Shown here one piece after another: positions 20,974 to 49,063 of a DNA stretch of 49,078 bases. Numbering within the stretch: position 1 is the stretch's first letter; each line of letters starts with the position of its first letter. The stretch is from a virus: positions 1-49,078 of the IMG/VR virus record IMGVR_UViG_3300035076_000007, one strand, 5' to 3'. A program made the position numbers and the translations under genes. The notes beneath the pieces are model-generated. The model was given only the letters and a program-made list of their open reading frames with translations. It did no database searches and was not told where the DNA came from.

Positions 20974-22839
20974 ATGACCGCTCGAATCAAGATCAGTCAG
21001 GCCGGGCTCGCCGCCGGCGTCGCCGGCAAATCGCGAACCGATGGGCTCGCAACCGGCGCGCTCGTTACGCTCGAGGATGTGAGCGGCACGGGGTCGAGCA
21101 CGTTCCACCTGCTATGGGGTCCGGTCGAGGATACGACCGCGGAGGCCTCGCTCGCGGTGACGGGCGACCCGGACATTTGGACATTTTCGCCGACGGCTGC
21201 CGCGTATGGCAGCTATGAGATCGAGCTCCGCGACGATGGCGTGCCGATCGAGCGGCGCATCTTCGGCATCCGCACGCCCGCCAACCAGCTGCTCATCCCT
21301 GCGCTCAATGAGCGCGCGAGCAGGCACGCGGGATGGCATAACGACGGCGCCGATCAGATCGAGCTATGCGAGCAGAACGCGAGCGACTTTCCGATCGCGG
21401 CGCTCAATAACTTTCGTTACGCCGGCTGGTGGCGCTCGCTTTATGAGCTCTATCGCATCGTCGAATTCGGCATCGGCAGCATTGCAAACAATGCGGTCGC
21501 GCTGATCAAGCTGGTGAAGATCCCGGCCAAATCGATCCTCGCCAACCCCACCAACGCCCTCGCCGACGTAACGACGTTGGCGGGCAGCGCGGCGCTGCAA
21601 CATCTTCGGGTCAACGCCGCCAACAACGCCCTCGAATTCGTGACCATCGACGTCGGCGAATTCACGGCGGTGGGCTCGCGAACCGTTCTGATGAATGCAG
21701 GCGCCGTCAGCGCGGTGCCTGCATTCGTCGCCCCGTCCGCCCAGTTTCAATACCTGCGCGCCAACGTATCCAACACCGGGCTCGAGTGGAGCAACCTGAG
21801 CGGGCACGCCTCCACCTCGCTCGTCTACGACGGCGCCACCAATACTTACCAGCGCGCCGCGCTCACCGGCGCGGTCACCTCCGCGCAGAATAGCAACGCA
21901 ACGGCCTTCGGAGTGCTCGCCGCAAAGAGCGTCCTAGCCAACGCGACGAATGGTAGCGCGGTGCCGGCCGCGCTCGCGGGCTCCGCGGCGTCGCAACACT
22001 TGCGCGTCAACTCCGCCAACAACGCCCTCGAATGGGCGACCATCGACGTCGCGGAGTTCACGGCGTTCGCCGCAAAGAGCGTCCTAGCGAACGCGACGAA
22101 TGGTAGCGCGGTGCCGGCCGTGCTCGCGGGCTCCGCGGCGTTGCAACACTTGCGCGTCAACTCCGCCAACAACGCCCTCGAATGGGCGACCATCGACGTC
22201 GCGGAGTTCGGATCCGTAGCGGCGAAAAGTGTCTTCGTCAACGCGGGGCCTGCGCCCGCCGCGCCCGCGTTCCTAGCGCCCACGGTCGCCTTTAGCTACC
22301 TCCGCAGCAACTCATCCAACAACGTGCTCGAGTGGGCGCAGCAAGGCACGATCGCATGCCGGACGACCGTCACCACGGCCACCAATTCCACGGCGGTGGT
22401 CGACTGCACGGGTTCATTCTCGATCCCTGCAAACACGCTCGTCGCGGGTAGCAGCTTCCGCGTACGGTTCTCGTTTCAATTCCTACGGGGCGCGACCGCA
22501 ACGGCCTTGAACCTCGGCGCGTTTCTGGACGTGGGCGGCGTCCTACTTTCCGTGGTCGCCGCGCCGGCATCGACGGTCAACGGGTTTGTCGGTTACGTCG
22601 AGGTGGAGGCGGTGTTTACGGTGCTAACGACGGGCGCCGGCGGCACTGCGTTTGCATACCTGCGCGCCTCTTCGAACGCGAGCGCGGGCGCCGTCTTTAC
22701 CTGGACCGCAGCAAACACAAACCCTATGGCGATCGACACCACGATCGCCAATGTGATCCGGGGTTATGGGCAAATGAACGCCGCGGTAGCCAACTGCACC
22801 ATCAACGCAACGGGCGGCGATGTTCAGCGGGTCAACTGA
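20974..22839 (+). CDS. Tail fibre protein with 50-residue repeats
   Basis: Protein of 621 aa. The N-terminal 185 residues appear non-repetitive, including SYEIELRDDGVPIERRIFG. Residues about 185-430 are built of about 50-residue repeats with the core AAKSVLANATNG and LRVNSANNALEWATIDVAEF. The C-terminal 170 residues are beta-rich (VAGSSFRVRFSFQFLRG) and resemble a phage fibre tip. It lies last in the tail cluster, the usual fibre position. Repeats likely form an extended shaft. Confidence 0.75.
   Translation: MTARIKISQAGLAAGVAGKSRTDGLATGALVTLEDVSGTGSSTFHLLWGPVEDTTAEASLAVTGDPDIWTFSPTAAAYGSYEIELRDDGVPIERRIFGIRTPANQLLIPALNERASRHAGWHNDGADQIELCEQNASDFPIAALNNFRYAGWWRSLYELYRIVEFGIGSIANNAVALIKLVKIPAKSILANPTNALADVTTLAGSAALQHLRVNAANNALEFVTIDVGEFTAVGSRTVLMNAGAVSAVPAFVAPSAQFQYLRANVSNTGLEWSNLSGHASTSLVYDGATNTYQRAALTGAVTSAQNSNATAFGVLAAKSVLANATNGSAVPAALAGSAASQHLRVNSANNALEWATIDVAEFTAFAAKSVLANATNGSAVPAVLAGSAALQHLRVNSANNALEWATIDVAEFGSVAAKSVFVNAGPAPAAPAFLAPTVAFSYLRSNSSNNVLEWAQQGTIACRTTVTTATNSTAVVDCTGSFSIPANTLVAGSSFRVRFSFQFLRGATATALNLGAFLDVGGVLLSVVAAPASTVNGFVGYVEVEAVFTVLTTGAGGTAFAYLRASSNASAGAVFTWTAANTNPMAIDTTIANVIRGYGQMNAAVANCTINATGGDVQRVN
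21919..22218 (+). repeat. Two near-identical 150-bp tandem repeats in the fibre gene
   Basis: Units start at 21919 and 22069 and differ at only a few bases; a degenerate unit follows at 22219. Two more diverged units lie further upstream in the gene (about 21520 and 21670). Near identity at DNA level suggests recent duplication or recombination. Confidence 0.8.
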
Positions 22840-26422: not shown

Positions 26423-27084
26423 AGTCGCATGCCTCGCGGCGCGGTCACCTTGCGCCCGCGCTTGCCCGGTGCCTTGCGAGCCGTCGCCTTGCGAGCCGTC
26501 GCCTGGCGCTTGGCGGCCTTGCCTTTGCGCGCAATGTCCTCACTTTCGAAAACCACGTTGGCGAGCACGCCCGGCATGGGATACGACGGCGGCAACGGCA
26601 GGCCCGCGATCGGAGCGTTGCGCGTGTGCTCGACTCGGCACCAGCGCTGGACGTCCGCGCGGACTTGCTCGCTCCACGACTCGACCTGTTTGATCGTGGG
26701 CACATACTCGGGCGGCCGCACGCAAGTGATCAAATATCGGAGCTCGACCGGAGGCAACATCGGTCCCTCGCCGTGCCGCGGCTCGCCCGTCAAACCGCTC
26801 CACCCGCCCAGCTGCGGCGCCGGCTCATCGTACGCTAGTGAGACTTGCCGTTCCTCGAGCACCGCGCCGCGATTCAACTCGCGGCGGATCTGCGCCTGCT
26901 GGAGGTCGAGCTTTTTGCGGCTCACGTTGAGCGCGCGGATCTCTTTGCGCTTGTCCGCGATCTCCTCGAGGTTTGCATCGCGCTGCGTTGCGAGCGCTAG
27001 ATGTAGCTTGGTGCGCTCATCGATCTCGAGCGGTGTGAGCGCGCGCTCGAAATAGCCTGGCTCTCGGGTGTCTTCGCCGTTCAT
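26419..27084 (-). CDS. Hypothetical protein with coiled coil and histone H1-like basic tail
   Basis: Protein of 221 aa. Residues 14-75 form a charged helical coiled coil. The centre has LRYLITCVRPPEYVPTIKQV. The last 35 residues are repeats of ARKAT/KR type (KAAKRQATARKATARKA), like bacterial histone H1-like tails, so DNA binding is likely. Overlaps the LexA-like gene start by ATGA. Confidence 0.65.
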   Translation of the reverse strand: MNGEDTREPGYFERALTPLEIDERTKLHLALATQRDANLEEIADKRKEIRALNVSRKKLDLQQAQIRRELNRGAVLEERQVSLAYDEPAPQLGGWSGLTGEPRHGEGPMLPPVELRYLITCVRPPEYVPTIKQVESWSEQVRADVQRWCRVEHTRNAPIAGLPLPPSYPMPGVLANVVFESEDIARKGKAAKRQATARKATARKAPGKRGRKVTAPRGMRL

Positions 27085-27389
27085 TGTGTTGCTCCGTCTG
27101 GTGGTGTTTCGAGGCGAGCTCGCGCGAGCAATTGCCGCGCCGCCTCGGTGAGTGTGAGACCTCGCGCGGTGCGCGCGTGGCGGGTGATCAGTTGCTTGGC
27201 GGCGAGGCGGCAGAGATGCTCATGAATGACCTGCCGGCTATGCGGGCTCAGGCCGAGCTCGATGGTAAACTCCGCATAGGTCGGAGGGAACCCCCGCGCC
27301 TCGACCGATCGCTCGATGATGCGCAGGATCTCGAATTGTCGCGGAGACACCGGACGCTCGCCGGCGCGCGCCCCGAGGGGGGCGCTCAT
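27081..27389 (-). CDS. LexA-like winged-helix DNA-binding protein
   Basis: Protein of 102 aa. Residues 15-80 (SPRQFEILRIIERSVEARGFPPTYAEFTIELGL…) match the LexA N-terminal DNA-binding domain, including the recognition-helix region (SRQVIHEHL). The LexA protease domain is absent, so it is a stand-alone DNA-binding module. ATG 27389 is chosen because it overlaps the stop of the acidic gene upstream; an earlier ATG (27404) would overlap it more. It may regulate early genes or replication. Confidence 0.75.
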   Translation of the reverse strand: MSAPLGARAGERPVSPRQFEILRIIERSVEARGFPPTYAEFTIELGLSPHSRQVIHEHLCRLAAKQLITRHARTARGLTLTEAARQLLARARLETPPDGATQ

Positions 27390-27511
27390 GGAACAAACTC
27401 CCAATCGGCGCCGTCGTTCAAATCGAGATCCTCGAACGCCTCGCCCTCCGGAGGCTCGGGCCCGAGCTCGGGCTCGAGCTCATCGACGGGCTCGCTTTCC
27501 TGCACCATCAT
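27386..27511 (-). CDS. 41-residue acidic protein
   Basis: Very small frame (MMVQESEPVDELEPELGPEP…DWEFVP), with about 14 Asp/Glu. It is joined by ATGA overlaps at both ends to the initiator-like and LexA-like genes, which argues that it is translated. It might be a DNA-mimic or an inhibitor of a neighbouring DNA-binding protein; this is speculative. Confidence 0.55.
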   Translation of the reverse strand: MMVQESEPVDELEPELGPEPPEGEAFEDLDLNDGADWEFVP

Positions 27512-33890: not shown

Positions 33891-34147
33891 CGGCTGCCCC
33901 CCACGCTGCGGAGGGCGCTCTTGGCGCGTAGCCTGTTCATGTAAGACCATTTGTGAGAGTCGGAGCAATACCGGCGCGCGGCATTGGTGAGCGCCACCCC
34001 GCACCATCGGCACGCGCCAGGCTTGACGCGAGCTCGCCGGCGGAGGACGTCCGCGGTACGGCACGCATCAGTGCACCACTGGCGCGGTCGGCCCCTGCCG
34101 GGTTGCTCGAGCGCGGCGCCGCACTGGCAATGGGTCGGCTTGCTCAT
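33887..34147 (-). CDS. Double zinc-finger protein
   Basis: Protein of 86 aa with two Cys clusters (CQCG…CTDAC and CRWCG…CSDSH), each able to bind zinc. Basic and likely nucleic-acid binding. ATG 34147 overlaps the integrase stop by ATGA, so its translation is linked to integrase expression. Confidence 0.7.
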   Translation of the reverse strand: MSKPTHCQCGAALEQPGRGRPRQWCTDACRTADVLRRRARVKPGACRWCGVALTNAARRYCSDSHKWSYMNRLRAKSALRSVGGSR

Positions 34148-36153
34148 CGGCTGCCCCCCTCGCCGCGCTTGGCCCGGACGACCTCCAGCCGGACCGGCTC
34201 GGGCGGGGCAGCTCGGGCGGCCTCCGCGATCCGGCGGAGCTCCGCATCGATAACCGGCTCCAGGGCTCGCGCGGCCGCCCAATTGTGTTCGTCGCCGGCC
34301 TGGCGCCGGGCGGCCTCCAGCTGCTCGAGCAGCGTCACACCCGGGTGTGACGGTAGGTGGTTTCCGGTAGCCTCGGGCGCAGGGTCACCCCCCGGTTTGT
34401 CCGCGGTTTGTGCGTTCCCGTTGCTTGGGTTCGGATTTAGGTTCCGGCGCCTTCGGGCTTGGGAGTTCGAGTCTCCCCTCGCGCACAGAGCATCAATCAT
34501 GCTGGTTTCGCCAACGGGCGGAGCCGGCGGCGCCTCCCCCTCGGGGCGAGCGTCACGGGTAGCGTCACACGCATGCCAACTGTTCAGTGCCCCGCCGGTT
34601 GTATATGCCGCCTCGGGCGTTTCCCCTCGCGGGCTCGGGATGCCCTCGCGCGGCGCCTGGGCGCCATCGTGCTGCGGCGACCTTCCGGCGACTGACAATC
34701 GCTCGGCGGTGTGCTCGGCGGCGCCTAGGCGCGCGCCGGGGAGGGCAGCGCCCGGCGTGCTCGTATCGGGCCCCTGACCAGGCCGGTTGCCAGAATCGAT
34801 CTCGGTTGCGGCAACGGTCGCCGGTTGCGCGGCGGCCTCCGAAGTCTGCTCGACCTCGGCCGCCTCCGCCAACGATCCAAACGCAGCGTCCAGGGGGAGG
34901 TAGGGCGCGAGCCCGAGGTGCTCGACCGTCGCGCGGCTTCGGTTGTATCTGGCGATCATGGTCGAGCTCTCATGCCCGGTGTGTTGGCTGATGGTTTCGT
35001 TATCCACCCCCGCCAGCTTGCACCACGTTACGTAAGTGCTGCGGAGGTCATGCTCGCGGAGGCGCCGCAACCGACCCTCGGTGAACAGCAAGCGCTCGCG
35101 GGTCGTGCCCGAGAGCTCGATGTGTTTGCGGAGACCCTCCGCCGCTTTTTTGATGTTGGTGGCCTTCAACCATTTGAACGGCCCGGCGAGCTCGGGCATC
35201 CGGCGCCGCAGCTCCGCGAGCACCTCGCCCGTTCCAGCGTTGAACACGAAATTCAAAGCGCGTCCAGTTTTCGTATCCGGCACATCGAGCAACCATTTGC
35301 CGTTGTCGAGCTGGCTCAGGTGTTGCCACTCGATCCGGTGCGCCTCGCTGATGCGCAACCCCTCGCGGATGATGAATCCCCAAAGCACCCGATACTCGAA
35401 ACGGATCGCGCGGCAGCGCACCAGCCGCACATATTCCTCCGGATAGAGGAACGGAAACTCGGGGGAAGTGCCTTTGGTGATCTTCGGCAGCTTGCACACC
35501 GCCGAGAGCGGCCACGCGGGGATGATGCGGAGCTCGACCGCGATTTTCAAAACGCGCCGGACGACCTGGCTATAGGCTTTGAACGTCGCGTCGGTTTTGC
35601 ACCGCGCGCGCGCCGGTCGCATCGCGCGCCAATAGTCATCATCCGAGAACGTCGCGAGCGGTGCATCGGCAATATATTTGCAGATGAATTCCACCCGCGG
35701 CTCATCGGTACCCTCCGCGGACTTTTTGCCATACCCGGCATTGGGATACATCCGATCGAGCTCTTGCGAGCACCACGCGCGGGCGAGCTGGCCCCAAGTG
35801 CTGAACTTGGCGGAGGCCTCGCTCTGTCGCTCGCTCGGGCGGCTCATCACCACGTTTGCCGCGGCGATGGCAAACGCGAATTTTTCCTCATCGTCGGCCA
35901 CCATGCCCGCCTGGCGCATCAGATATTCGCACTGCTCGACCCGGCCGACCGCAACCAGCGCATCCCGCATCGCGGTAATGTCGACCAGGCGCGAGAGCGC
36001 CAACGCCTTGCGGACCTGGAGCGATCCATAGGACTCATCGATCGCGAGCTTGAGTCGAAACTGGAGTCGTTTGCGCGACCCGTTGGCGCGCTTGACGCTG
36101 CCCGAGCTGATCGATTGCGAGAACCCGCCCGCGACTTGCACCAATCCCGACAT
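34144..36153 (-). CDS. int: Tyrosine integrase with attP in its coding sequence
   Basis: Protein of 669 aa, much longer than most tyrosine recombinases. The catalytic set is present: R267 (EGLRISEA), K295 (TKTG), H368-R371 (EHDLR), H394 (HTGH) and nucleophile Y403 (ARYNR). Everything after about residue 425 is a low-complexity Ala/Pro/Glu-rich extension of about 245 residues. Codons for residues about 556-574 overlie the tRNA-Leu-like attP core on the opposite strand. Integration would therefore change the Int C-terminus. ATG 36153 shares its A with the upstream stop. Confidence 0.92.
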   Translation of the reverse strand: MSGLVQVAGGFSQSISSGSVKRANGSRKRLQFRLKLAIDESYGSLQVRKALALSRLVDITAMRDALVAVGRVEQCEYLMRQAGMVADDEEKFAFAIAAANVVMSRPSERQSEASAKFSTWGQLARAWCSQELDRMYPNAGYGKKSAEGTDEPRVEFICKYIADAPLATFSDDDYWRAMRPARARCKTDATFKAYSQVVRRVLKIAVELRIIPAWPLSAVCKLPKITKGTSPEFPFLYPEEYVRLVRCRAIRFEYRVLWGFIIREGLRISEAHRIEWQHLSQLDNGKWLLDVPDTKTGRALNFVFNAGTGEVLAELRRRMPELAGPFKWLKATNIKKAAEGLRKHIELSGTTRERLLFTEGRLRRLREHDLRSTYVTWCKLAGVDNETISQHTGHESSTMIARYNRSRATVEHLGLAPYLPLDAAFGSLAEAAEVEQTSEAAAQPATVAATEIDSGNRPGQGPDTSTPGAALPGARLGAAEHTAERLSVAGRSPQHDGAQAPREGIPSPRGETPEAAYTTGGALNSWHACDATRDARPEGEAPPAPPVGETSMIDALCARGDSNSQARRRRNLNPNPSNGNAQTADKPGGDPAPEATGNHLPSHPGVTLLEQLEAARRQAGDEHNWAAARALEPVIDAELRRIAEAARAAPPEPVRLEVVRAKRGEGGSR
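34431..34485 (+). other. attP: attP core: 3' half of tRNA-Leu(UAG)
   Basis: From the anticodon stem onward this matches a class II tRNA-Leu: stem TCGGA, loop TTTAGGT (anticodon TAG at 34438-34440, G37), stem TCCGG, long variable arm GCC-TTCG-GGC, T-arm GGGAG-TTCGAGT-CTCCC, then acceptor strand CTCGCGC and discriminator A. No matching 5' half precedes it. Integration by Int at this core would rebuild the host tRNA gene. Antisense, it encodes the RGDSNSQ stretch of the integrase. Confidence 0.8.
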
Positions 36154-36566
36154 CAAAACACCGCTTTCTTTTGTTGCGTCAACTGATGCCGCCGCATCCG
36201 AAGGGTAACGAGCAGCTCCCAACGCGCCCCCATCAGAGTTTGCGGGCAGCGGTCGTGCCGCCGGATCGCCGTCACCAGCGAGGTCACGACGTCGCCCAGG
36301 TCGGCGGGCAGCAACACATTTTCACGCACGCCGCACCGATGGCAGTGCGCCCAGATCGCGTTGCCCGCGCGCGCCTCCGCGGGCGTGGGATCGTCGAGCG
36401 TGACCCAATACTGCCCCTTGCGCCACGGCGGCCACAGTCGCCGCCGCTCCGCGAACGCCTCCCCATACCCGGGATGCATTTCCTCGAGCCGCGCCACCAG
36501 CTCGCGATCGATCTCATCCTGCGCCATCGCCGCGCGGAGGGCTCGGCCATCGGTGCCGCCCATCAT
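36153..36566 (-). CDS. Hypothetical protein with CxxC
   Basis: Protein of 137 aa: helical N-terminus (AQDEIDRELVARLEEMHPGYGEAF), WVTLDDPTPAEARAG, then CHRCGVRENVLLP. Directly upstream of int with a TGATG overlap, so possibly expressed with it. Function unknown. Confidence 0.6.
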   Translation of the reverse strand: MMGGTDGRALRAAMAQDEIDRELVARLEEMHPGYGEAFAERRRLWPPWRKGQYWVTLDDPTPAEARAGNAIWAHCHRCGVRENVLLPADLGDVVTSLVTAIRRHDRCPQTLMGARWELLVTLRMRRHQLTQQKKAVF

Positions 36567-41364: not shown

Positions 41365-41816
41365 ATGTCCGCGAGCAGCGCGCCAAACTCTATACCGAGC
41401 TAGATGCGCTGCTCGAGCGCTTGGCCGAGCTCACGCCCGATGAGCGGGCCGCGTTTGTCGAGCGCTTCGGCAGGGTCGCGCGCGCCGCCGGCGTGAGCGC
41501 GGACGACACCGCCGCGGCGATGCGTGACCTCGCGGCGCGCCTGCGCCCGGGCGGCCTCGACCCGTGCGACTGTCGCGATTGGCGAGGGCGCGCGTGGAGC
41601 CGTCCGGGCGAGCCGCGCGCCGATGCCGCTTGCGAGCCCGAGATCGAAACGACCGAGGTGGTCGACGATGGCGACGCCTCGCCGCGCCCGGTCGCCAATT
41701 GGCGAGAGCTCGCGCTCCGCGCCGCTGCGGTGTGGCCGTGCCATCCCGAGCCGCCCCGGATCGGCGAGCGAAATTGCGCGGGCGGGCTCCAGGTCGAGCG
41801 CGCCGCGCCGTTCTGA
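41361..41816 (+). CDS. Hypothetical protein, last gene before the cassette array
   Basis: Protein of 151 aa. Residues 1-55 form a helical domain (REQRAKLYTELDALLERL). The last 20 codons run into the first copy of the array module, and its TGA stop is the TGA of TTCTGA in that module. This suggests that the module was inserted at, or recruited, the 3' end of an existing gene. Confidence 0.6.
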   Translation: MNVREQRAKLYTELDALLERLAELTPDERAAFVERFGRVARAAGVSADDTAAAMRDLAARLRPGGLDPCDCRDWRGRAWSRPGEPRADAACEPEIETTEVVDDGDASPRPVANWRELALRAAAVWPCHPEPPRIGERNCAGGLQVERAAPF

Positions 41817-41911
41817 TCAGTGCGCAAACCGATCCCGACGATTCCCGTTTTGGGGCACGCAAAACGGTACACGCGGATTTCGCTCCAGGTTCGGCGCGCG
41901 GCGTCGTTCTG
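41787..41911 (+). promoter_or_regulatory. Array modules 0 and 1 (tandem)
   Basis: First copy: CTCCAGG 41787-41793, box 2 at 41809, leading into GATCAG without an ATG. Second copy: CTCCAGG 41883-41889, box 2 at 41905, then the gene start. A possible 30-codon leader begins at GTG 41820 and stops in the second module's TGA. The same double layout recurs at 43390-43521. Confidence 0.7.
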
Positions 41912-42181
41912 ATGGGTATGTGCGACGCGAGCAACACCGCCGGCCTGATGCCCCTCACCACCACCCGGATCACCTCCGCCGTTGCGGGCAACCCGCCCGC
42001 GGTCGGCGAGCACGTCGAGATCGGCCGCCATAGCGGCGCGGTGTGCGCGCGGTACCGCATCACCGCCGTTCGCGCCCTCGGGGGCGGGATGTATGAGACC
42101 GACCTCCGCAAGGTGTTTTCTGTCTCGGTGCCGATCGCGGGCTCGCCCGGTTGGTTCCGCAGCGAATACATCGACGCCTAA
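41912..42181 (+). CDS. Cassette 1 protein, unknown
   Basis: Protein of 89 aa (MGMCDASNTAGLMPLTTTRI…). It has a beta-rich centre (VGEHVEIGRHSGAVCARYRI) like a small SH3-type fold. A second in-frame start lies six bases after the first, as in the other cassettes, but the rest of the shared N-terminus has diverged. No ribosome site. Confidence 0.65.
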   Translation: MGMCDASNTAGLMPLTTTRITSAVAGNPPAVGEHVEIGRHSGAVCARYRITAVRALGGGMYETDLRKVFSVSVPIAGSPGWFRSEYIDA

Positions 42182-42206
42182 CCCCCCGCGGTGCTCCCCC
42201 CCCCCC

Positions 42207-42237
42207 GAGCCCGGCCTCCCCCTGGAGAGCCGGGCTC
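42207..42237 (+). terminator. Array hairpin 1
   Basis: GAGCCCGGC pairs with GCCGGGCTC, and the inner CTCC with GGAG, giving about 13 bp with one bulge; GCGCCATTTCGG follows. The stem recurs almost unchanged nine times in this region. The T-tract is short, so termination strength is uncertain. Confidence 0.6.
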
Positions 42238-42284
42238 GCGCCATTTCGGGCCGCAGCGTTTCGGCGATCGATTTTCGCGTTCGG

Positions 42285-42313
42285 CTCCAGGTTGCCCGCG
42301 TGGTGTCGTTCTG
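42285..42313 (+). promoter_or_regulatory. Array module 2
   Basis: CTCCAGG 42285-42291, 15-base spacer, CGTTCT 42307-42312, then the start codon. No Shine-Dalgarno. Confidence 0.65.
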
Positions 42314-42589
42314 ATGAGCATGGACCTGAGAAACATCACCCGCGAACAGTTTGAGACCACCGTCTGCAACCTATGCCGCATCTATTCGGAGCGCGCCGAA
42401 ACGATCGGGCGTGAGCAAGGCTGGGCGGCGCCGGCATGTGTCGAGCTGCTCGCGCTCGATCTTTTCATCATCGGCGCCGACTCGCGCCCGGTTCAGGCCG
42501 TCCGCGCCTATCTCGCGGCGGGATGCGAAGCCTATTTCAAGGGCGAGCGGACCCCCGAGGCCGAGGCCGCTCACCTCGCGTCACTCTGA
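42314..42589 (+). CDS. Cassette 2 protein, unknown
   Basis: Protein of 91 aa (MSMDLRNITREQFETTVCNL…), helical throughout with two central Cys. Only MSM of the shared N-terminus remains. Function unknown. Confidence 0.7.
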   Translation: MSMDLRNITREQFETTVCNLCRIYSERAETIGREQGWAAPACVELLALDLFIIGADSRPVQAVRAYLAAGCEAYFKGERTPEAEAAHLASL

Positions 42590-42607
42590 ACCCCCCGCGC
42601 GCCACCC

Positions 42608-42638
42608 GAGCCCGGCCTCCCCTAGGAGAGCCGGGCTC
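42608..42638 (+). terminator. Array hairpin 2
   Basis: Same stem as hairpin 1; loop variant CTCCCCTAGGAG still pairs internally. Confidence 0.6.
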
Positions 42639-42685
42639 GCGCCATTTCGGGCCGTCTCATCCTGGCGATCGATTTCCGCGATCGG

Positions 42686-42714
42686 CTCCAGGTTGCCCGC
42701 GTGGTGTCGTTCTG
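42686..42714 (+). promoter_or_regulatory. Array module 3
   Basis: CTCCAGG 42686-42692, 15-base spacer, CGTTCT 42708-42713. Upstream CGATCG occurs twice as an inverted pair (GCGATCGATTTCCGCGATCG). Confidence 0.65.
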
Positions 42715-43314
42715 ATGAGCATGAGCAACGCAGCACAGAACATCCGCAACGACCTCAAAGCCGCCGGGTTCGCCCTGCGGTCGTTCTCGGTCCGCAGCTC
42801 GCGCGGGGGCAGCGTCACGGTCGAGATCAAAGATCTCGCGATCTCCAAAGCGCGGATCACCGAGATCGCGAGCGCGCATGAGAAGATCGATCGCTGCTCG
42901 GTGACCCATGAGATCCTCAGCGGTGGAAACACGTTCGTTTCGGTACGCTACGCCGACACCGCGATCGAGCCCGCCGGCGCCGCGCTCACCGCGCGCCTCC
43001 ATGCTGGCGAGCGCAATTTCGGCGCGGTGCACGTCGACACCGAGGGCGACCGTCGCCATACGTGGCATGTGTGGTCTAACGGCGCCGTCGGCCGCCACCT
43101 CCGCCAGATCACCCCCTTTGACGGCGAGGCGCTCGCGGAGTTGCTCGCCTCGCGCGGCGAGCTCGCCGCGGTGCTCGCCGCGGCGCCCGCCGCGCCCGCC
43201 GCAGCGCCCGAGCTTGCCCCGGCGCCCGCCGCGCCCGCCGCAGCGCCCGAGCTCACCACGCGGCGCCTGAACATCGCCCCCGCGCTACTCCGCGAGCTCG
43301 CCGGCGAGAGCTGA
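42715..43314 (+). CDS. Cassette 3 protein, LPD29-like domain
   Basis: Protein of 199 aa, the largest in the array. After MSMSNAAQ, residues 9-80 (IRNDLKAAGFALRSFSVRSS…SVTVEIKD…VSVRYAD) resemble the LPD29 domain found in large polyvalent proteins of phages and conjugative elements. Residues 80-150 are a second domain (HTWHVWSNGAVGRHL). A twofold Ala/Pro repeat (AAPAAPAAAPEL) links to a short helix. Function unknown. Confidence 0.7.
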   Translation: MSMSNAAQNIRNDLKAAGFALRSFSVRSSRGGSVTVEIKDLAISKARITEIASAHEKIDRCSVTHEILSGGNTFVSVRYADTAIEPAGAALTARLHAGERNFGAVHVDTEGDRRHTWHVWSNGAVGRHLRQITPFDGEALAELLASRGELAAVLAAAPAAPAAAPELAPAPAAPAAAPELTTRRLNIAPALLRELAGES

Positions 43315-43324
43315 GCCTCCCCCC

Positions 43325-43355
43325 GAGCCCGGCCTCCCCCTGGAGAGCCGGGCTC
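43325..43355 (+). terminator. Array hairpin 3
   Basis: Same stem and loop as hairpin 1, followed by GCTCCATTTCGG. Confidence 0.6.
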
Positions 43356-43389
43356 GCTCCATTTCGGCGATCGATCTTTCGCGGGCGGG

Positions 43390-43521
43390 CTCCAGGTCGA
43401 GCAGCTCGCGCCGTTCTGATCAGTGCGCAAACCGATCCCGACGATTCCCTCTTTGGGACGTCGCGTTTCGGCGAGCGATTTTCTGGGCGTTGCTCCAGGT
43501 CGCTCGAGATCCGTCGTTCTG
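43390..43521 (+). promoter_or_regulatory. Array modules 4a and 4b (tandem)
   Basis: 4a: CTCCAGG 43390-43396, box 2 at 43412, followed by GATCAGTGCGCAAACCGATC as in module 0. 4b: CTCCAGG 43493-43499, box 2 at 43515, then the start codon. The shared sequence after 4a and module 0 shows that the pair was duplicated as a unit. Confidence 0.7.
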
Positions 43522-43917
43522 ATGAGCATGAGCAACGCAGCACAGAGCACCGAGGCCGCCAAATTCATCCGCTCCGCCAAGCGCGTGATGCGCCAGATCG
43601 AAACCTACGCCACCACCGGCGGCGACTGTCTCGAGGCGACCCGCACCGAGGTCAAGCTCGCGGCCGCTCGCGACCGTCTCGAGGATACGCTCCGCCCCCT
43701 CGGGCTCGAGAGCGATGCGGCGTGCCTGGCGCTGATGGGGCAGGTCAAGCAAGCCTGCCGCGATTGCGGCGACCGTGCCGCGGCCGCCCGCCGCGCCGCC
43801 AACAATGCCGAGATCGCCCGCATCAATGCCGAGATCGCGGACGCCCGCGAGGCCGCGGAGCGGCGCAACCCCGGCGCCGCGGCGTTCCTCCGCGAGCTCC
43901 GCCTCGCCGCCCGCTGA
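43522..43917 (+). CDS. Cassette 4 protein, coiled coil
   Basis: Protein of 131 aa starting MSMSNAAQSTEAAKF and helical over its whole length, with heptad-like Ala/Arg/Glu content near the C-terminus (ARINAEIADAREAAERR). A GTG at 43423 is in frame but the extension is just module sequence. Function unknown. Confidence 0.7.
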   Translation: MSMSNAAQSTEAAKFIRSAKRVMRQIETYATTGGDCLEATRTEVKLAAARDRLEDTLRPLGLESDAACLALMGQVKQACRDCGDRAAAARRAANNAEIARINAEIADAREAAERRNPGAAAFLRELRLAAR

Positions 43918-43936
43918 AACCGCAGCGGCGCCCCCC

Positions 43937-43967
43937 GAGCCCGGCCTCCCCCTGGAGAGCCGGGCTC
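43937..43967 (+). terminator. Array hairpin 4
   Basis: Same stem and loop as hairpin 1, followed by GCGCCATTTCGG. Confidence 0.6.
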
Positions 43968-44015
43968 GCGCCATTTCGGGCCGTCTCATCGCGGCGATCG
44001 ATCTTTGGCGATCGG

Positions 44016-44044
44016 CTCCAGGATGCCCGCGCGGTGTCGTTCTG
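44016..44044 (+). promoter_or_regulatory. Array module 5
   Basis: CTCCAGG 44016-44022, 15-base spacer, CGTTCT 44038-44043; two CGATCG-like sites upstream. Confidence 0.65.
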
Positions 44045-44272
44045 ATGAGCATGAGCAACGCAGCACTAAAGGCCGAAACCACCACCCCCGAAACGCTGCT
44101 CGCGGCCGCGCTAGAGCACGTCGAATCCGCCTCGGTGCGGGCGTGGGCGACCACGGATCACAACCGGCCGATCTTCGTGACGATCGCGGCCTCCGCGATT
44201 CAAAAGAGCAACGGCTCGCCGGACGTCCACCGGTTCGCGGCGTACATCGTCGCTCTCGCGATCGGGTTGTAA
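44045..44272 (+). CDS. Cassette 5 protein, unknown
   Basis: Protein of 75 aa (MSMSNAALKAETTTPETLLA…) with a central beta-like stretch (RPIFVTIAASAI) and a hydrophobic C-terminus (AAYIVALAIGL). Function unknown. Confidence 0.65.
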   Translation: MSMSNAALKAETTTPETLLAAALEHVESASVRAWATTDHNRPIFVTIAASAIQKSNGSPDVHRFAAYIVALAIGL

Positions 44273-44292
44273 GCAACCCCCCGCGCTCCCCC

Positions 44293-44323
44293 GAGCCCGG
44301 CCTCCCCCTGGAGAGCCGGGCTC
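44293..44323 (+). terminator. Array hairpin 5
   Basis: Same stem and loop as hairpin 1, followed by GCGCCATTTTGG. Confidence 0.6.
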
Positions 44324-44349
44324 GCGCCATTTTGGGGCTGTCGATTTCC

Positions 44350-44378
44350 CTCCAGGATCGGCGCGCGGCGTCGTTCTG
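44350..44378 (+). promoter_or_regulatory. Array module 6
   Basis: CTCCAGG 44350-44356, 15-base spacer, CGTTCT 44372-44377. It precedes the cassette with no convincing ORF. Confidence 0.6.
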
Positions 44379-44541
44379 ATGGTTTGAGAGCAACGCAGAG
44401 CGAGTCAGACCGCCAGGCGCCCAGACCCCCGCAAGGATTGCACGGGGAGCGCTGCGACCGACGGCCGGACCTCCGAACCTAGCTGGACTTCTCACCGCAT
44501 ACCCCCGGCCTCGCGAGAGCGTCCGGGGGTTCGGCATTTTG
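44379..44541 (+). ncRNA. Cassette 6: possible structured small RNA
   Basis: The ATG after the module is followed at once by a stop (ATG GTT TGA), and the second ATG is lost, yet GAGCAACGCAG is kept at DNA level. The next 150 bases have strong pairing: CCCCG…CGGGG and CAGGCGC…GCGCTG form a stem-loop at about 44414-44454, and a CCCCCGG…CCGGGGG hairpin with trailing T's ends the unit. A 32-codon frame from TTG 44384 is possible but unconvincing. Transcription is predicted, not shown. Confidence 0.45.
44502..44536 (+). terminator. Cassette 6 terminator
   Basis: CCCCCGG (44502-44508) pairs with CCGGGGG (44523-44529); the loop holds a CTCGCGAG palindrome. TTCGGCATTTT follows. Unlike the ten array hairpins, this stem is unique. 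Confidence 0.6.
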
Positions 44542-44570
44542 TGCACCGGATCGGCGCAGTACGATTTTCG

Positions 44571-44599
44571 CTCCAGGGTCGCCGCGATCTGTCGTTCTG
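44571..44599 (+). promoter_or_regulatory. Array module 7
   Basis: CTCCAGG 44571-44577, 15-base spacer, CGTTCT 44593-44598. Confidence 0.65.
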
Positions 44600-44842
44600 A
44601 TGAGCATGAGCAACGCAGCACTGACTATCCGATGCATCGCCCGCCCCCGCGGCAACATGGTTGACATTCTGGTCAACGGCCGCCGCATCGATGCCGCCCC
44701 CGCCGGCGGTGACCTCATCCGCCGCGTTCGCGGTCTCGTTCGCGACCTGCGCGCGGCGCACGAGGGCGCGACTGTGACCGCCCCCGGCGGTGTCGTGGAC
44801 ATCTTCGCAATCATCCCGGATGCATCGATCCTCATCGGCTGA
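44600..44842 (+). CDS. Cassette 7 protein, unknown
   Basis: Protein of 80 aa (MSMSNAALTIRCIARPRGNM…) with alternating strands and one helix (GDLIRRVRGLVRDLRAAHEG). Function unknown. Confidence 0.65.
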   Translation: MSMSNAALTIRCIARPRGNMVDILVNGRRIDAAPAGGDLIRRVRGLVRDLRAAHEGATVTAPGGVVDIFAIIPDASILIG

Positions 44843-44863
44843 GCGCCGCCCCTGGCGCCCCCC

Positions 44864-44895
44864 GAGCCCGGCCTCCCCCCTGGAGAGCCGGGCTC
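44864..44895 (+). terminator. Array hairpin 6
   Basis: Same stem as hairpin 1 with one extra C in the loop. Confidence 0.6.
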
Positions 44896-44942
44896 GCGCC
44901 ATTTCGGGCCGTCTCATCGCGGCGATCGATTTTCGCGATCGG

Positions 44943-44971
44943 CTCCAGCTTGCCCGCGCGGTGTCGTTCTG
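44943..44971 (+). promoter_or_regulatory. Array module 8
   Basis: CTCCAGC variant 44943-44949, 15-base spacer, CGTTCT 44965-44970. Confidence 0.65.
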
Positions 44972-45229
44972 ATGAGCATGAGCAACGCAACGATGAGCCC
45001 GCCCGCCCCCGCCCCCGCAACGCCCGCCGCGCCGCTATACGTCAACGTCCGCGCCCGGTTCGGCGGGGGTAAGGTTCACGTCCAGGTCAACGGGCACACC
45101 CGCACGCTCTGCGGCTGGTGGCACGGCGGGCGCGCTCAGCGCGTGCCGCATAGCGCGACCTGCGAGCACTGCCGGTTGCGCGCCGGTGCGGTGCGGATGG
45201 CCGACGCCGGCACGCCCCCCAAACCCTGA
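44972..45229 (+). CDS. Cassette 8 protein, zinc-finger-like
   Basis: Protein of 85 aa. After MSMSNATMS comes a Pro/Ala linker, then VNGHTRTLCGWWHGG…HSATCEHCRL, a Cys/His set like the N-terminal zinc site of the 37845-38369 protein. It probably binds one zinc. Function unknown. Confidence 0.7.
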   Translation: MSMSNATMSPPAPAPATPAAPLYVNVRARFGGGKVHVQVNGHTRTLCGWWHGGRAQRVPHSATCEHCRLRAGAVRMADAGTPPKP

Positions 45230-45254
45230 GCCTCGCTGCCCCCGCACCCCCCCC

Positions 45255-45285
45255 GAGCCCGGCCTCCCCCTGGAGAGCCGGGCTC
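45255..45285 (+). terminator. Array hairpin 7
   Basis: Same stem and loop as hairpin 1, followed by GCGCCATTTCGG. Confidence 0.6.
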
Positions 45286-45333
45286 GCGCCATTTCGGAGC
45301 GTCACGTTTCGGCGATCGATCTTTGGCGTTCGC

Positions 45334-45362
45334 CTCCAGGTTCCCCGCGCGGCGTCGTTCTG
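45334..45362 (+). promoter_or_regulatory. Array module 9
   Basis: CTCCAGG 45334-45340, 15-base spacer, CGTTCT 45356-45361. Nearly identical over about 70 bp to module 12. Confidence 0.65.
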
Positions 45363-45629
45363 ATGAGCATGAGCAACGCAGCAAAGACCCTCGAGATGGT
45401 GACCCTGAACACCGCGCGCGGCGCTTACTCGGTCGCCGTATACGAAACCGCCTCCCTCGGGTGGGCCGCCAACTACGGGGCGCTCGAGACCTACAACAAC
45501 CCCTCGCGCGCGGCCGCCCTCGCGTCGCTCAAGCTCTCCCTCGAAATCTGCCGCCCGGCGTGCTCCCCCAACTCCGCCCTCGGGTTTGCGCGCACCTTGC
45601 GCGCGGCAGAGCGCGGCCAAGCCTACTAA
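45363..45629 (+). CDS. Cassette 9 protein, unknown
   Basis: Protein of 88 aa (MSMSNAAKTLEMVTLNTARG…) with a beta-rich first half (YSVAVYETASLGWAANYGAL), a helix and two Cys. Function unknown. Confidence 0.65.
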   Translation: MSMSNAAKTLEMVTLNTARGAYSVAVYETASLGWAANYGALETYNNPSRAAALASLKLSLEICRPACSPNSALGFARTLRAAERGQAY

Positions 45630-45651
45630 CGCCCGCCCCCCGGCGCCCCCC

Positions 45652-45683
45652 GAGCCCGGCCTCCCCCATGGAGAGCCGGGCTC
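45652..45683 (+). terminator. Array hairpin 8
   Basis: Same stem as hairpin 1 with an extra A in the loop. Confidence 0.6.
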
Positions 45684-45730
45684 GCGCCATTTCGGGCCGC
45701 AGCATTTCGGCGATCGATTTTCGCGTTCGG

Positions 45731-45759
45731 CTCCAGCTTGCCCGCGATCTGTCGTTCTG
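45731..45759 (+). promoter_or_regulatory. Array module 10
   Basis: CTCCAGC variant 45731-45737, 15-base spacer, CGTTCT 45753-45758. Confidence 0.65.
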
Positions 45760-45981
45760 ATGAGCATGAGCAAAACGGGGGGGCGTCCGGTGGCGAAATG
45801 GCAGTTTAGCAACCCGTCCGCGCAACGGGCGGAGGCGGCGCTAAACCTCACCGAGGCGCGCGAGCTGCTCGAGCGCGTGGTGCCGTCGCACTTGCGCGAG
45901 CAGGCGCCGGCCGAGCCCGAGCCCACGCGGGCGGGCCAATGTTTTCGCAACGTGACGCGCATACTCAAAACGGTGCGCTGA
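45760..45981 (+). CDS. Cassette 10 protein, unknown
   Basis: Protein of 73 aa (MSMSKTGGRPVAKWQFSNPS…), basic at both ends with a central helix. This is the only protein cassette not followed by the standard hairpin; instead GCGATCT-TTCCG-AGATCGC can pair just before the next module. Confidence 0.65.
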   Translation: MSMSKTGGRPVAKWQFSNPSAQRAEAALNLTEARELLERVVPSHLREQAPAEPEPTRAGQCFRNVTRILKTVR

Positions 45982-46022
45982 ATCGGGGCGTAGCGTTTCG
46001 GCGAGCGATCTTTCCGAGATCG

Positions 46023-46051
46023 CTCCAGGATGCCCGCGCGGCGTCGTTCTG
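46023..46051 (+). promoter_or_regulatory. Array module 11
   Basis: CTCCAGG 46023-46029, 15-base spacer, CGTTCT 46045-46050. A 7-bp inverted repeat lies directly upstream. Confidence 0.65.
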
Positions 46052-46324
46052 ATGAGCATGAGCAACGCAGCACCGAAAACGTTCCAAGTTCCCTATCTGC
46101 TCTCGTTCGGCACCGAGACCCGCGCGGACGGCTCGCGCGTGGAGGTCATGGGTCGGGGCAACGCTGGCTGGACGACCGCGGATTTTGCGGACGGCGCAAC
46201 GGCGCTGGCGTTTGCCGAGGCGGTACCGCGGCAAAGCCGCACCCGAGCCCACGCCCGCGTGCTCGCCCAGCTCGCCCCCCACGCGGCGGCGCTAGAGGCC
46301 AAGCGGCGGCTCGGGCGAGCCTGA
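46052..46324 (+). CDS. Cassette 11 protein, unknown
   Basis: Protein of 90 aa (MSMSNAAPKTFQVPYLLSFG…), beta-rich first half, then an Ala-rich helix (RAHARVLAQLAPHAAALEA). Function unknown. Confidence 0.65.
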   Translation: MSMSNAAPKTFQVPYLLSFGTETRADGSRVEVMGRGNAGWTTADFADGATALAFAEAVPRQSRTRAHARVLAQLAPHAAALEAKRRLGRA

Positions 46325-46341
46325 ACCCCGCAACGCGTTCC

Positions 46342-46372
46342 CGAGCCCGGCCTCCCCCTGGAGAGCCGGGCT
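46342..46372 (+). terminator. Array hairpin 9
   Basis: Same stem and loop as hairpin 1, followed by GCGCCATTTGGA. Confidence 0.6.
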
Positions 46373-46421
46373 CGCGCCATTTGGAGGCGTAGCGTTTCGG
46401 CGATCGATCTTTGGCGTTCGC

Positions 46422-46450
46422 CTCCAGGTTCCCCGCGCGGCGTCGTTCTG
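46422..46450 (+). promoter_or_regulatory. Array module 12
   Basis: CTCCAGG 46422-46428, 15-base spacer, CGTTCT 46444-46449. Last copy of the array. Confidence 0.65.
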
Positions 46451-46627
46451 ATGAGCATGAGCAAGGCGGCGACACTGCAACGCATCGAAGAGGAAACCAT
46501 CGCGCGGATGATGCGAGAGCTGCAAAGCGAGCTCGCGGCGCAGGTCGAGGCGGGCGAGCTCACCGACACTCAGGCGAACGAATGGGCGAACATGAAGGCC
46601 GATCAATGGGCGCGGGGTTTGTCGTGA
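46451..46627 (+). CDS. Cassette 12 protein, short helical
   Basis: Protein of 58 aa (MSMSKAATLQRIEEETIARM…) wholly helical and acidic, with GELTDTQANEWANMKADQW near the end. It ends in a GTGA overlap with the next gene, so this cassette carries two genes. Confidence 0.7.
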   Translation: MSMSKAATLQRIEEETIARMMRELQSELAAQVEAGELTDTQANEWANMKADQWARGLS

Positions 46628-46845
46628 AATACCCTCGCGAGGCCCGCAAGGCGGTGATCGGTCCTTTCACTCGGCGCAAGCTCTCGAGCGGCGAGCACCG
46701 GACGATCGAGCGCCTGCGGCGCGAGGCGGACTCCCTCGGGGAGCCCGGCACGGTCGCCGCGTGTGAGCGCGCCCTCGCCGGGTGGGCGGAGGATGCGGAC
46801 GATTGCCTACTCGAGGCGCTCGCGCTCCAGGGGCACTACAGTTGA
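46624..46845 (+). CDS. Hypothetical protein coupled to cassette 12
   Basis: Protein of 73 aa, helical (HRTIERLRREADSLGEPG). GTG 46624 is chosen by overlap; ATG 46606 would add six residues. Function unknown. Confidence 0.6.
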   Translation: MKYPREARKAVIGPFTRRKLSSGEHRTIERLRREADSLGEPGTVAACERALAGWAEDADDCLLEALALQGHYS

Positions 46846-46878
46846 CCCCACGCGGCACCGCCGCACCTACACCCCCCG

Positions 46879-46911
46879 AAGGGCGCCCCCACCGGCGCCC
46901 TTTGTTCGTTT
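46879..46911 (+). terminator. Rho-independent terminator ending the array
   Basis: AAGGGCGCC (46879-46887) pairs with GGCGCCCTT (46894-46902) around a six-base loop; TTTGTTCGTTT follows. It separates the array from the late regulators. Confidence 0.75.
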
Positions 46912-47033
46912 CGGGCCGTCCCCAATCGGGACTCGCCGCCCATCCCTCCCCAACCATCAGAACGGATCGGCGGCGCCAAACTTGAGCGGGAAAAAATCGC
47001 CCTCGGCCTCGCGCCCTGTCATGCTCGGCCGAG

Positions 47034-47519
47034 GTGACACCAACCCGCGATCCGGACCTCGAATGGTTGCTCTGTGAGCTGCCCGCGCTGCTCGGGGAGC
47101 GATCCGGGCATGGGGCGTTGATCGCCGCTCTCGAGCGCGGCCCTGGAGGCGTCTCGAGCGGTGACGGGGCATGGGATGCCATCGAGCGAGCGCGGCCGCA
47201 CGTTGCCCGAGCCCGGCGCCTGCGCGCGGCCTGGTCGAGGCTCGCCCCCGATGAGCGCGGCATCCTCCAGGTGCACTACACCGCCCCCGCGTGCCGCGAG
47301 GTGGGGGTCAACGCCCAGCTCGGCGCCCTCGCGGCCGCAGCGGTGGCGCTCTCGAGCAACCGGCGCGCGCTCCAGCTCGCGTGCGGGCATCCCGCCGGCG
47401 CCGGCAACGCCGCCCGGATCGCGGAGGCCCGGCGCCTCGCCACCCGCGCGCTCGCCCATGCCCACCGTGCTTGGCTGGGCGCGCGCCGCGAGCTGGTGTT
47501 AACCTGGGCGGGTGGTTAA
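47034..47519 (+). CDS. Helical protein, possible late transcription regulator
   Basis: Protein of 161 aa, all helical. The core IERARPHVARARRLRAAWSRLAPDERGILQVHY resembles the spacing of phage sigma-like or late-activator proteins, and it lies just upstream of the head genes where such regulators often sit. GTG 47034 is the likely start. Similarity is weak. Confidence 0.5.
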   Translation: MTPTRDPDLEWLLCELPALLGERSGHGALIAALERGPGGVSSGDGAWDAIERARPHVARARRLRAAWSRLAPDERGILQVHYTAPACREVGVNAQLGALAAAAVALSSNRRALQLACGHPAGAGNAARIAEARRLATRALAHAHRAWLGARRELVLTWAGG

Positions 47520-48131: not shown

Positions 48132-48857
48132 ATGAGCAATAGCGAAACGTGGGGTCTGGAGGTCCGCGGCCTCGATGAGATGCTCCGCGAGCTCGAAACG
48201 ATGGCCAAGCGGGCCGTTCCCTACGCGGCGCGCGAGAGCCTCACTAGCCTCGCGTTTGCGGGGCGAGCGATTTGGCAGAGCGAGATGGCCTCGAGCCTAA
48301 CGCTTCGCAACAAATGGACCCAACGGCGCGCGCTGGTCGAGCGCGCGCGCGGCTCGCGGATGGCCGAAATGGAGGCCGTGCTCGGCCACACTGAGGACTA
48401 CGTACGCCGGTTGGAATTCGGCATCGGTGAGCGCGCCAAACGCGGCGGCGTCGCCATCCCTTCGGAGACCGCCGCAGGGCAAGCCAAAGGCTCGCTCTCG
48501 GGCGGGCGCCGGCGCGCGGTGCGCAAATCCCTCATCATCCGCCAGCTCGGCAAAATCAAACGCCAGTCGAGCGGGATGCCACGCAAGGCACGCAACGCGC
48601 GCGCGGTACGCCAGGCCATCAAAGACGGGTCGCGCCTTGCCTACCTAGAGTTCAGTAAGCGCAGGGGCATCTATAGGGTGATGGGGGGTAGGAAGAAACC
48701 CACCGTTCTCAAGCTCTACGACCTCACTCGGCCATCAGTGCCATTGCCCCGCATCCCCACACTTCAACGCTCAATAGACCAGGCTCTACTGCGCGCACCT
48801 ACCATCGCCCTCGCTGCGGTCATGAGGCAGCTGGAGCGGCATCGGATTGGTAGCTGA
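48132..48857 (+). CDS. gpZ-like minor tail or tail-completion protein
   Basis: Protein of 241 aa, basic and helical (RGLDEMLRELETMAKRAVPYAARESL… and VPLPRIPTLQRSIDQALLRA near the C-terminus). The pattern resembles lambda gpZ family tail proteins, somewhat longer. Codon use shifts after about base 48640 to AGG, ATA and CTA codons unlike the rest, suggesting a recombination boundary. It is separated from the main tail cluster. Confidence 0.55.
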   Translation: MSNSETWGLEVRGLDEMLRELETMAKRAVPYAARESLTSLAFAGRAIWQSEMASSLTLRNKWTQRRALVERARGSRMAEMEAVLGHTEDYVRRLEFGIGERAKRGGVAIPSETAAGQAKGSLSGGRRRAVRKSLIIRQLGKIKRQSSGMPRKARNARAVRQAIKDGSRLAYLEFSKRRGIYRVMGGRKKPTVLKLYDLTRPSVPLPRIPTLQRSIDQALLRAPTIALAAVMRQLERHRIGS

Positions 48858-49063
48858 GATCACGAAACCAGCATGTTTTGTGCTGCTACCAAATGCCTTG
48901 TTTTATGCTGAATCCTCGGGCCGACACGCCTTGTGGCCGAGGTAGGACACGCATACCGGCCCAATGATTCAGCATAAAACAAGGCACTTCAGATGGCATC
49001 ATAAGTCATTGTTTTTGTTCATCTTTTCAAAGGTACTGTGGAAAGACCCCCACCCCGCCCAGG
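48858..49063. other. AT-rich intergenic island, probable packaging or recombination region
   Basis: Together with bases 1-150 across the join this is the longest gene-free stretch. It is clearly AT-richer than the rest and contains runs such as TTGTTTTTGTTC. It lies directly upstream of terS, where cos phages keep cosN and cosB. It also should hold the promoter for the head genes, but no clear boxes were found. Confidence 0.5.
48894..48986. repeat. 21-bp perfect inverted repeat
   Basis: Arms at 48894-48914 and 48966-48986 are exact reverse complements (TGCCTTGTTTTATGCTGAAT plus one base) around a 51-base loop. The loop itself has a nested GGCC-centred stem (CCTCGGGCC with GGCCGAGG). It could be a large hairpin terminator, a recombination or packaging site, or a replication element. 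Confidence 0.85.

Follow-up and report, generated by a model that had tools for sequence, protein, structure and literature searches.

A putative mobile array of single-gene expression cassettes with predicted leaderless promoters in a temperate phage from soil

The DNA analyzed here (the window) is a 49,078-base virus record from IMG/VR, originating from soil, in which a block of short genes is preceded by copies of one promoter-like module and mostly divided by similar hairpins; this block is referred to below as the array. The window also encodes a terminase, portal, protease, major head protein, sheath, tape measure, baseplate, endolysin and tyrosine integrase. The structural genes together with the integrase identify the phage, by its predicted gene content, as a temperate myophage. 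Relatives were collected by a terminase search. Three of them (G006, G007 and G019) carry a terminase 81–85% identical to that of the window and are syntenic with it across the structural genes, the integrase and the genes flanking the array; a fourth (G001) is equally close.

The module is defined by the motif CTCCAG(G/C)-N15-CGTTCTGAT(G/C). Fourteen copies, each with at most one mismatch, are located on the forward strand between positions 41787 and 46453 (individual starts in Table 1), and none deviates from the 15-base gap. Two (44943 and 45731) read CTCCAGC instead of CTCCAGG. No other module with so few changes is present in the window, except for an inverted copy with two mismatches at the right border, and dinucleotide shuffles gave a mean of 0.11 matches at three mismatches (largest number, 2). 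Alignment of all copies revealed that most share an upstream box, GGCGAKCGATYTTTCGC, about 22 bases 5′ of CTCCAGG; this is shortened or absent at modules 41883, 44350 and 44571, as well as at module 44784 of G001 and module 13114 of G003 (an unrelated phage described below).

Eleven modules lead into short open reading frames (ORFs), one into about 150 nucleotides (nt) without a long ORF, and two (41787 and 43390), which end in GATC, head mini-units of about 50 nt that contain no gene and finish in a small CCC/GGG hairpin. Mini-units mark both borders of the array, rightward on the left and inverted on the right. The same layout is found in G001, with a mini-unit at the same left border and an inverted module at the place matching that of the window.

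In the coding modules, TGATG is followed by three variable bases (AGC, GGT, GGC or GTC) and then by a second ATG (ATG2), whose place is fixed in 20 of 20 cases; modules without a gene have no ATG2. Since the first ATG is also present before the non-coding units, it belongs to the motif, and translation probably starts at ATG2. Counted from ATG2, the 11 ORFs encode 56 to 197 amino acids (aa). Six of them (modules 42686, 43493, 44016, 44571, 45334 and 46023) share ATGAGCATGAGCAACGCAGCA exactly, and the remaining starts, read from the first ATG, are MSMSNAT (44943), MSMSK (45731 and 46422), MSMD (42285) and MGM (41883). The residues NAA are always encoded by AAC GCA GCA, although GCA accounts for 7% of the alanine codons of this phage.

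Comparison of the array genes with one another revealed no convincing homology. Searches of their products against Pfam gave nothing above the curated cut-off, and PHROGs and PADLOC gave nothing convincing, with no match above cut-off. Protein A and its G001 orthologue show weak N-terminal similarity (E values of 0.0006 and 0.0045, below the cut-off) to the large polyvalent protein domain LPD29, and the predicted structure of protein A has a predicted local distance difference test score (pLDDT) of 42. A role of these genes in host takeover or defence, proposed in an earlier reading of the window made from the sequence alone, gained nothing from these searches and remains a guess.

Nine hairpins of one sequence family (GAGCCCGGC...GCCGGGCTC; 0.00 expected) are located between the units, with none between positions 45981 and 46023. 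Their folding energies are −24 to −28 kcal/mol in the window, G001 and G003, and their loops are private to each phage, that of G001 being unlike that of the window. It is likely that they act as terminators. The non-coding unit at 44350 has no match in Rfam, and its fold is not better than those of shuffled sequences. Beyond the terminator, the long non-coding unit of the window does not resemble that of G001 (local score 22; up to 29 in shuffles), and a small RNA common to both is not claimed.

The sequence-only reading had described a dozen genes with unrelated products, each behind a CTCCAGG-N15 module and most separated by near-identical hairpins, six of them with an identical MSMSNAA start at the DNA level and others beginning with MSMS. 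The exact gap, the lack of relationship between the products and the shared starts (six exact, with three more beginning MSMS) were all recovered, and the modules number 14. The corrections to it are that the ORFs number 11, that two modules carry CTCCAGC, that two head mini-units and that one is followed by no long ORF. The hairpins were found as described for most gaps, the one between 45981 and 46023 being an exception.

Table 1. Features of the array and its borders (positions in the window; ORFs counted from the second ATG).
Feature	Position	Strand	Remarks
Mini-unit 1, left array boundary	41787..41880	+	Module ending CGTTCTGATC, then AGTGCGCAAACCGATCCCGACGATTCCCGTTTTGGGG (short CCC/GGG hairpin)
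Module 41883-41914 + ORF W1 (41918-42181, 87 aa)	41883..42181	+	
Hairpin 1, terminator candidate	42207..42237	+	
Module 42285-42316 + ORF W2 (42320-42589, 89 aa)	42285..42589	+	Homologue in ordinary G003 operon
Hairpin 2	42608..42638	+	
Module 42686-42717 + ORF A (42721-43314, 197 aa)	42686..43314	+	G001 orthologue; 3′ part in G003
Hairpin 3	43325..43355	+	
Mini-unit 2 (CGTTCTGATC type)	43390..43460	+	
Module 43493-43524 + ORF W4 (43528-43917, 129 aa)	43493..43917	+	
Hairpin 4	43937..43967	+	
Module 44016-44047 + ORF B (44051-44272, 73 aa)	44016..44272	+	5′ part in G003; broken in G001
Hairpin 5	44293..44323	+	
Module 44350-44381 + ~150 nt without long ORF, own terminal hairpin	44350..44545	+	Candidate small RNA
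Module 44571-44602 + ORF W6 (44606-44842, 78 aa)	44571..44842	+	
Hairpin 6	44864..44895	+	
Module 44943-44974 (CTCCAGC) + ORF W7 (44978-45229, 83 aa)	44943..45229	+	
Hairpin 7	45255..45285	+	
Module 45334-45365 + ORF W8 (45369-45629, 86 aa)	45334..45629	+	Module within 72-bp exact repeat shared with W11
Hairpin 8	45652..45683	+	
Module 45731-45762 (CTCCAGC) + ORF C (45766-45981, 71 aa)	45731..45981	+	Orthologue in G001 array; homologue in ordinary G003 operon
Module 46023-46054 + ORF W10 (46058-46324, 88 aa)	46023..46324	+	Ordinary-gene homologue in G013
Hairpin 9	46343..46373	+	
Module 46422-46453 + ORF W11 (46457-46627) + overlapping ORF D (46624-46845, 73 aa)	46422..46845	+	
Terminator-like hairpin 3′ of D	46877..46904	+	
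Inverted degenerate module with mini-unit, right boundary	46955..46986	-	2 mismatches; faces into array

The array lies in a slot between gene 40290 and gene 47034. In the three syntenic relatives (G006, G007 and G019) this slot measures only about 0.8–1.2 kb and contains no module within two mismatches. In G001 it holds a 5-kb array whose genes partly differ from those of the window and whose modules are of the same design, but with GGT before ATG2 where the window has AGC. The two phages share the order of genes A, B (broken in G001), C and D, with different genes between them, and D (82% identical) is placed behind a different first gene in each. The related phages thus behave as the sequence-only reading had anticipated: genes between modules differ while the modules stay. 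The opposite pattern, the same genes in the same order without the module, was not encountered.

Two further observations concern this slot. A small reverse-strand gene inside the G001 array, between A and B, is also found in the slot of the array-free G006 and G019 and is missing from the window. Gene 47034, which follows the array, has TATGCT about 7 bases before its GTG in the relatives and may also be leaderless.

When viral contigs were searched for genes A, B, C and D, only G001 and G003 matched, and INPHARED phages gave no match for gene C or for array DNA. Single module matches in L060, L061 and G002 were judged to be due to chance. In cellular genome bins, the window terminase has two distant loci only, the nearest being 61% and 49% identical; the bin with the 61% match is labelled Deltaproteobacteria. 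G024 being a bin with a related terminase, 379 genomes of its phylum were scanned for the module; the 20 matches were isolated, never two on one contig, compared to 7 for the reversed control, and were also read as chance.

G003 has no structural gene in common with the window (tblastn, 1e-4 to 1e-5), and, apart from a distant integrase, only some small genes match between them. It nevertheless contains a 1107-base insert between the stop codon of the endolysin gene and the start of the next gene, comprising the 3′ part of A, a hairpin, a gene (T1), a mini-unit, a module and the 5′ part of B. In three relatives, L078, L079 and L080, the same two genes overlap with nothing between them, representing the empty site. 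One and the same block, a mini-unit with its following module, is placed before W1 in the window and before B, a different gene, in G003. The comparison of these loci indicates that a piece of the array can apparently enter an unrelated phage.

Three array genes have homologues outside arrays. A W2-like gene of G003 (31% identity over 74 residues) adjoins a C-like gene (60%) in an ordinary operon far from the array piece of this phage, the C-like gene being preceded by GGGGG before its ATG. The array-free relative G013 contains a lone W10-like gene (61%) with GGAG before its start. None of these homologues has a module or an MSNAA start, and all sit elsewhere as ordinary genes. The simplest reading is that the array genes were once ordinary phage genes whose starts were replaced by the module; the reverse direction seems less likely, because unrelated genes would each need to lose the same start.

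The modules were also compared over the 68 bases leading up to ATG2. Between phages, orthologous modules are 58–72% identical, whereas their ORFs are 75–76% identical in DNA; modules of the same phage average 68–81% identity to each other, with best pairs reaching 93%. W8 and W11 share 72 identical bases, ending within codon 3. The greater likeness of modules within than between phages, the long exact repeat and the private hairpin loops indicate that modules and hairpins have been homogenised within each phage, which amounts to concerted evolution. All four combinations were present at 26 of 91 site pairs in the window modules, which only hints at recombination inside the modules, since repeated mutation could have the same effect. 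Exact repeats of up to 72 bp and homogenisation would fit recombination in the shared flanks.

Taken as a whole, the locus is fairly probably a mobile array of single-gene expression cassettes carried by a temperate phage, in which leaderless promoter modules, hairpin insulation and turnover by recombination are combined. Each putative promoter would consist of the upstream box, a −35-like CTCCAGG, the 15-bp spacer and a −10-like CGTTCTGAT; it would be followed by three free bases, the ATG start codon, often the fixed MSNAA stretch, a short gene and a strong hairpin insulating the cassette. When the A of ATG2 is taken as +1, CTCCAGG occupies −35 to −29 and CGTTCTGAT −13 to −5, which for a start predicted at this base is normal promoter geometry. 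Each mRNA would then begin at the start codon or a few nucleotides before it. A Shine-Dalgarno sequence of at least 4 nt was found at 0 of 20 coding-module starts, compared to 12 of 21 other phage genes (the latter starts being partly unverified). The first 36 nt from ATG2 are A- and C-rich and nearly unstructured (mean folding energy −3.6 kcal/mol, versus −11.3 kcal/mol inside genes). The position of ATG2, the lack of a Shine-Dalgarno sequence and the unstructured 5′ ends would therefore suit mRNAs starting at or just before the start codon. Genes would be captured when a module with its start codon and first codons was placed before an ordinary phage gene, and recombination between the near-identical modules and hairpins would add, remove and swap cassettes and would also maintain uniformity within one phage.

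The module would be read by a sigma factor of the host. Its −10 element resembles those of some extracytoplasmic-function sigma factors (TCTGA). Since G003 has little else in common with the window, it is probably the host or the array that encodes the factor.

Several observations weigh against this interpretation. The low 5′ structure partly reflects shared descent of the MSNAA codons, the copies not being independent. No sigma-70 consensus promoter was detected in the array (41600-47100), and no sigma factor was found among the window proteins scanned. The hairpin stems are directly followed by GCGCCATTTC and not by a T run, and a terminator scan fails to pick them. Moreover, just three arrays were found (window, G001 and G003), and those of G001 and the window may derive from one ancestor array.

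The module may have a different function. It could be the operator of a phage repressor or activator that binds the upstream box, GGCGATCGATTTTTCGC, and switches all cassettes together. The box is also found next to gene 47034 in G006, a relative that lacks modules, and in G001 between divergent units, and a small protein with a LexA-type DNA-binding domain, a candidate phage regulator, is encoded at 27081-27404 (-) and conserved in the four relatives. However, several modules have a shortened box or none, as listed above, and such binding would be compatible with a promoter function; as a replacement for it, we regard the operator explanation as unlikely.

Somewhat less credit is given to the possibility that the module serves translation or regulation as an element within a longer transcript, the hairpins being mRNA processing or stability elements. 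Here the TGATG stop-start overlap would couple a short upstream frame (LQ....SF*) to the gene. The TGA does overlap the ATG in every coding module, with the ...SF-stop frame open into the overlap, and the stretch from CTCCAGG to the TGA divides into whole codons. Yet this frame has neither a conserved start codon nor a Shine-Dalgarno sequence, and its spacer, judged by eye, changes without codon periodicity. Modules also head non-coding units and mini-units, and the first ATG is present where no gene follows, as expected of a part of the motif. Integron-like cassettes recombining site-specifically at hairpins that serve as attC sites would account for single-gene units split by hairpins in a phage with a tyrosine integrase, but this was rejected as highly improbable: the R′ site GTTRRRY is absent from 41700-47000, the integrase is equally present in array-free relatives, and the cassettes bring their own start region.

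Returning to the array of expression cassettes, a more specific proposal, to which we give somewhat less than even weight, is that the module is itself a gene-capture device: a mobile leaderless promoter with start and first codons, copied before ordinary genes and kept uniform by gene conversion. It would build an expandable bank of singly controlled genes that unrelated phages with the same host could acquire.

Some features elsewhere in the window may be recorded. The integrase ORF (34144-36222, -) is 692 aa, long for a tyrosine integrase, with its catalytic domain at residues 258–430 and a less conserved remainder. A 33-nt inverted repeat (48891-48989; 91% complementary, arms 33 nt apart) lies near the contig end, in DNA of lower G+C content flanked by the gene at 48132 and the terminase genes. 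A large ORF near the tail genes (20974-22839), of which only the first part is well conserved among relatives, contains direct repeats (67 and 31 bp) spaced 150 bp apart (21940-22210).

The array resembles several known systems. Promoter-early stem-loop (PeSL) cassettes, reportedly described by Arbiol in 2010 and Comeau in 2014, are carried by T4-type phages and place an early host-type sigma-70 promoter and a stem-loop between genes. They are cited as aiding gene shuffling between related phages (PMC4503421). The array likewise has a promoter-like module and a stem-loop between small genes, and related phages carry different genes between the motifs. However, its phage is a temperate, GC-rich myophage of about 49 kb with a tyrosine integrase and no T4-specific structural match. 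The repeat takes in the start codon and first codons, with no Shine-Dalgarno sequence or sigma-70 consensus, and the copies are homogenised in one compact block, a piece of which is present in an unrelated phage.

The start-associated sequences (SAS) of cluster K mycobacteriophages contain AGGAG 3–7 bp from the start (PMC3203893) and precede many non-structural genes across the right half of the genome (PMC3203893, PMC11373665); extended SAS (ESAS) hold putative SigA-like promoters, and the repeat consensus varies between subclusters (PMC11373665). As in the array, a short repeat stands immediately 5′ of the start codons of many genes. SAS, however, has GGGATAGGAGCCC with AGGAG, which the array lacks, and the array repeat extends into the coding sequence, with a hairpin after each gene and all copies in one block.

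A single gene with its own putative signals between phage genes, as in G003, recalls the morons, which are extra phage genes with their own promoter and terminator. As with morons, the extra genes are absent at the same place in relatives (G006, G007 and G019 for the window, and the empty G003 site in L078-L080), but the array is homogeneous and multi-gene with a common start region. It would act like the PeSL and SAS systems, yet it fits the definition of neither; its description in the sequence-only reading as an analogous but different system is upheld, and that interpretation as a whole is partly supported.

It has long been asked how phages can acquire foreign genes and express them while leaving their operons intact. 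Here presence can be set against absence in relatives, an insert against its exact empty site, and genes with the module against the same genes lacking it; together with the homogenised repeats, this makes the steps of capture testable. A compact leaderless start module would be useful as a small expression part, and the array flags a set of phage proteins maintained as separate units.

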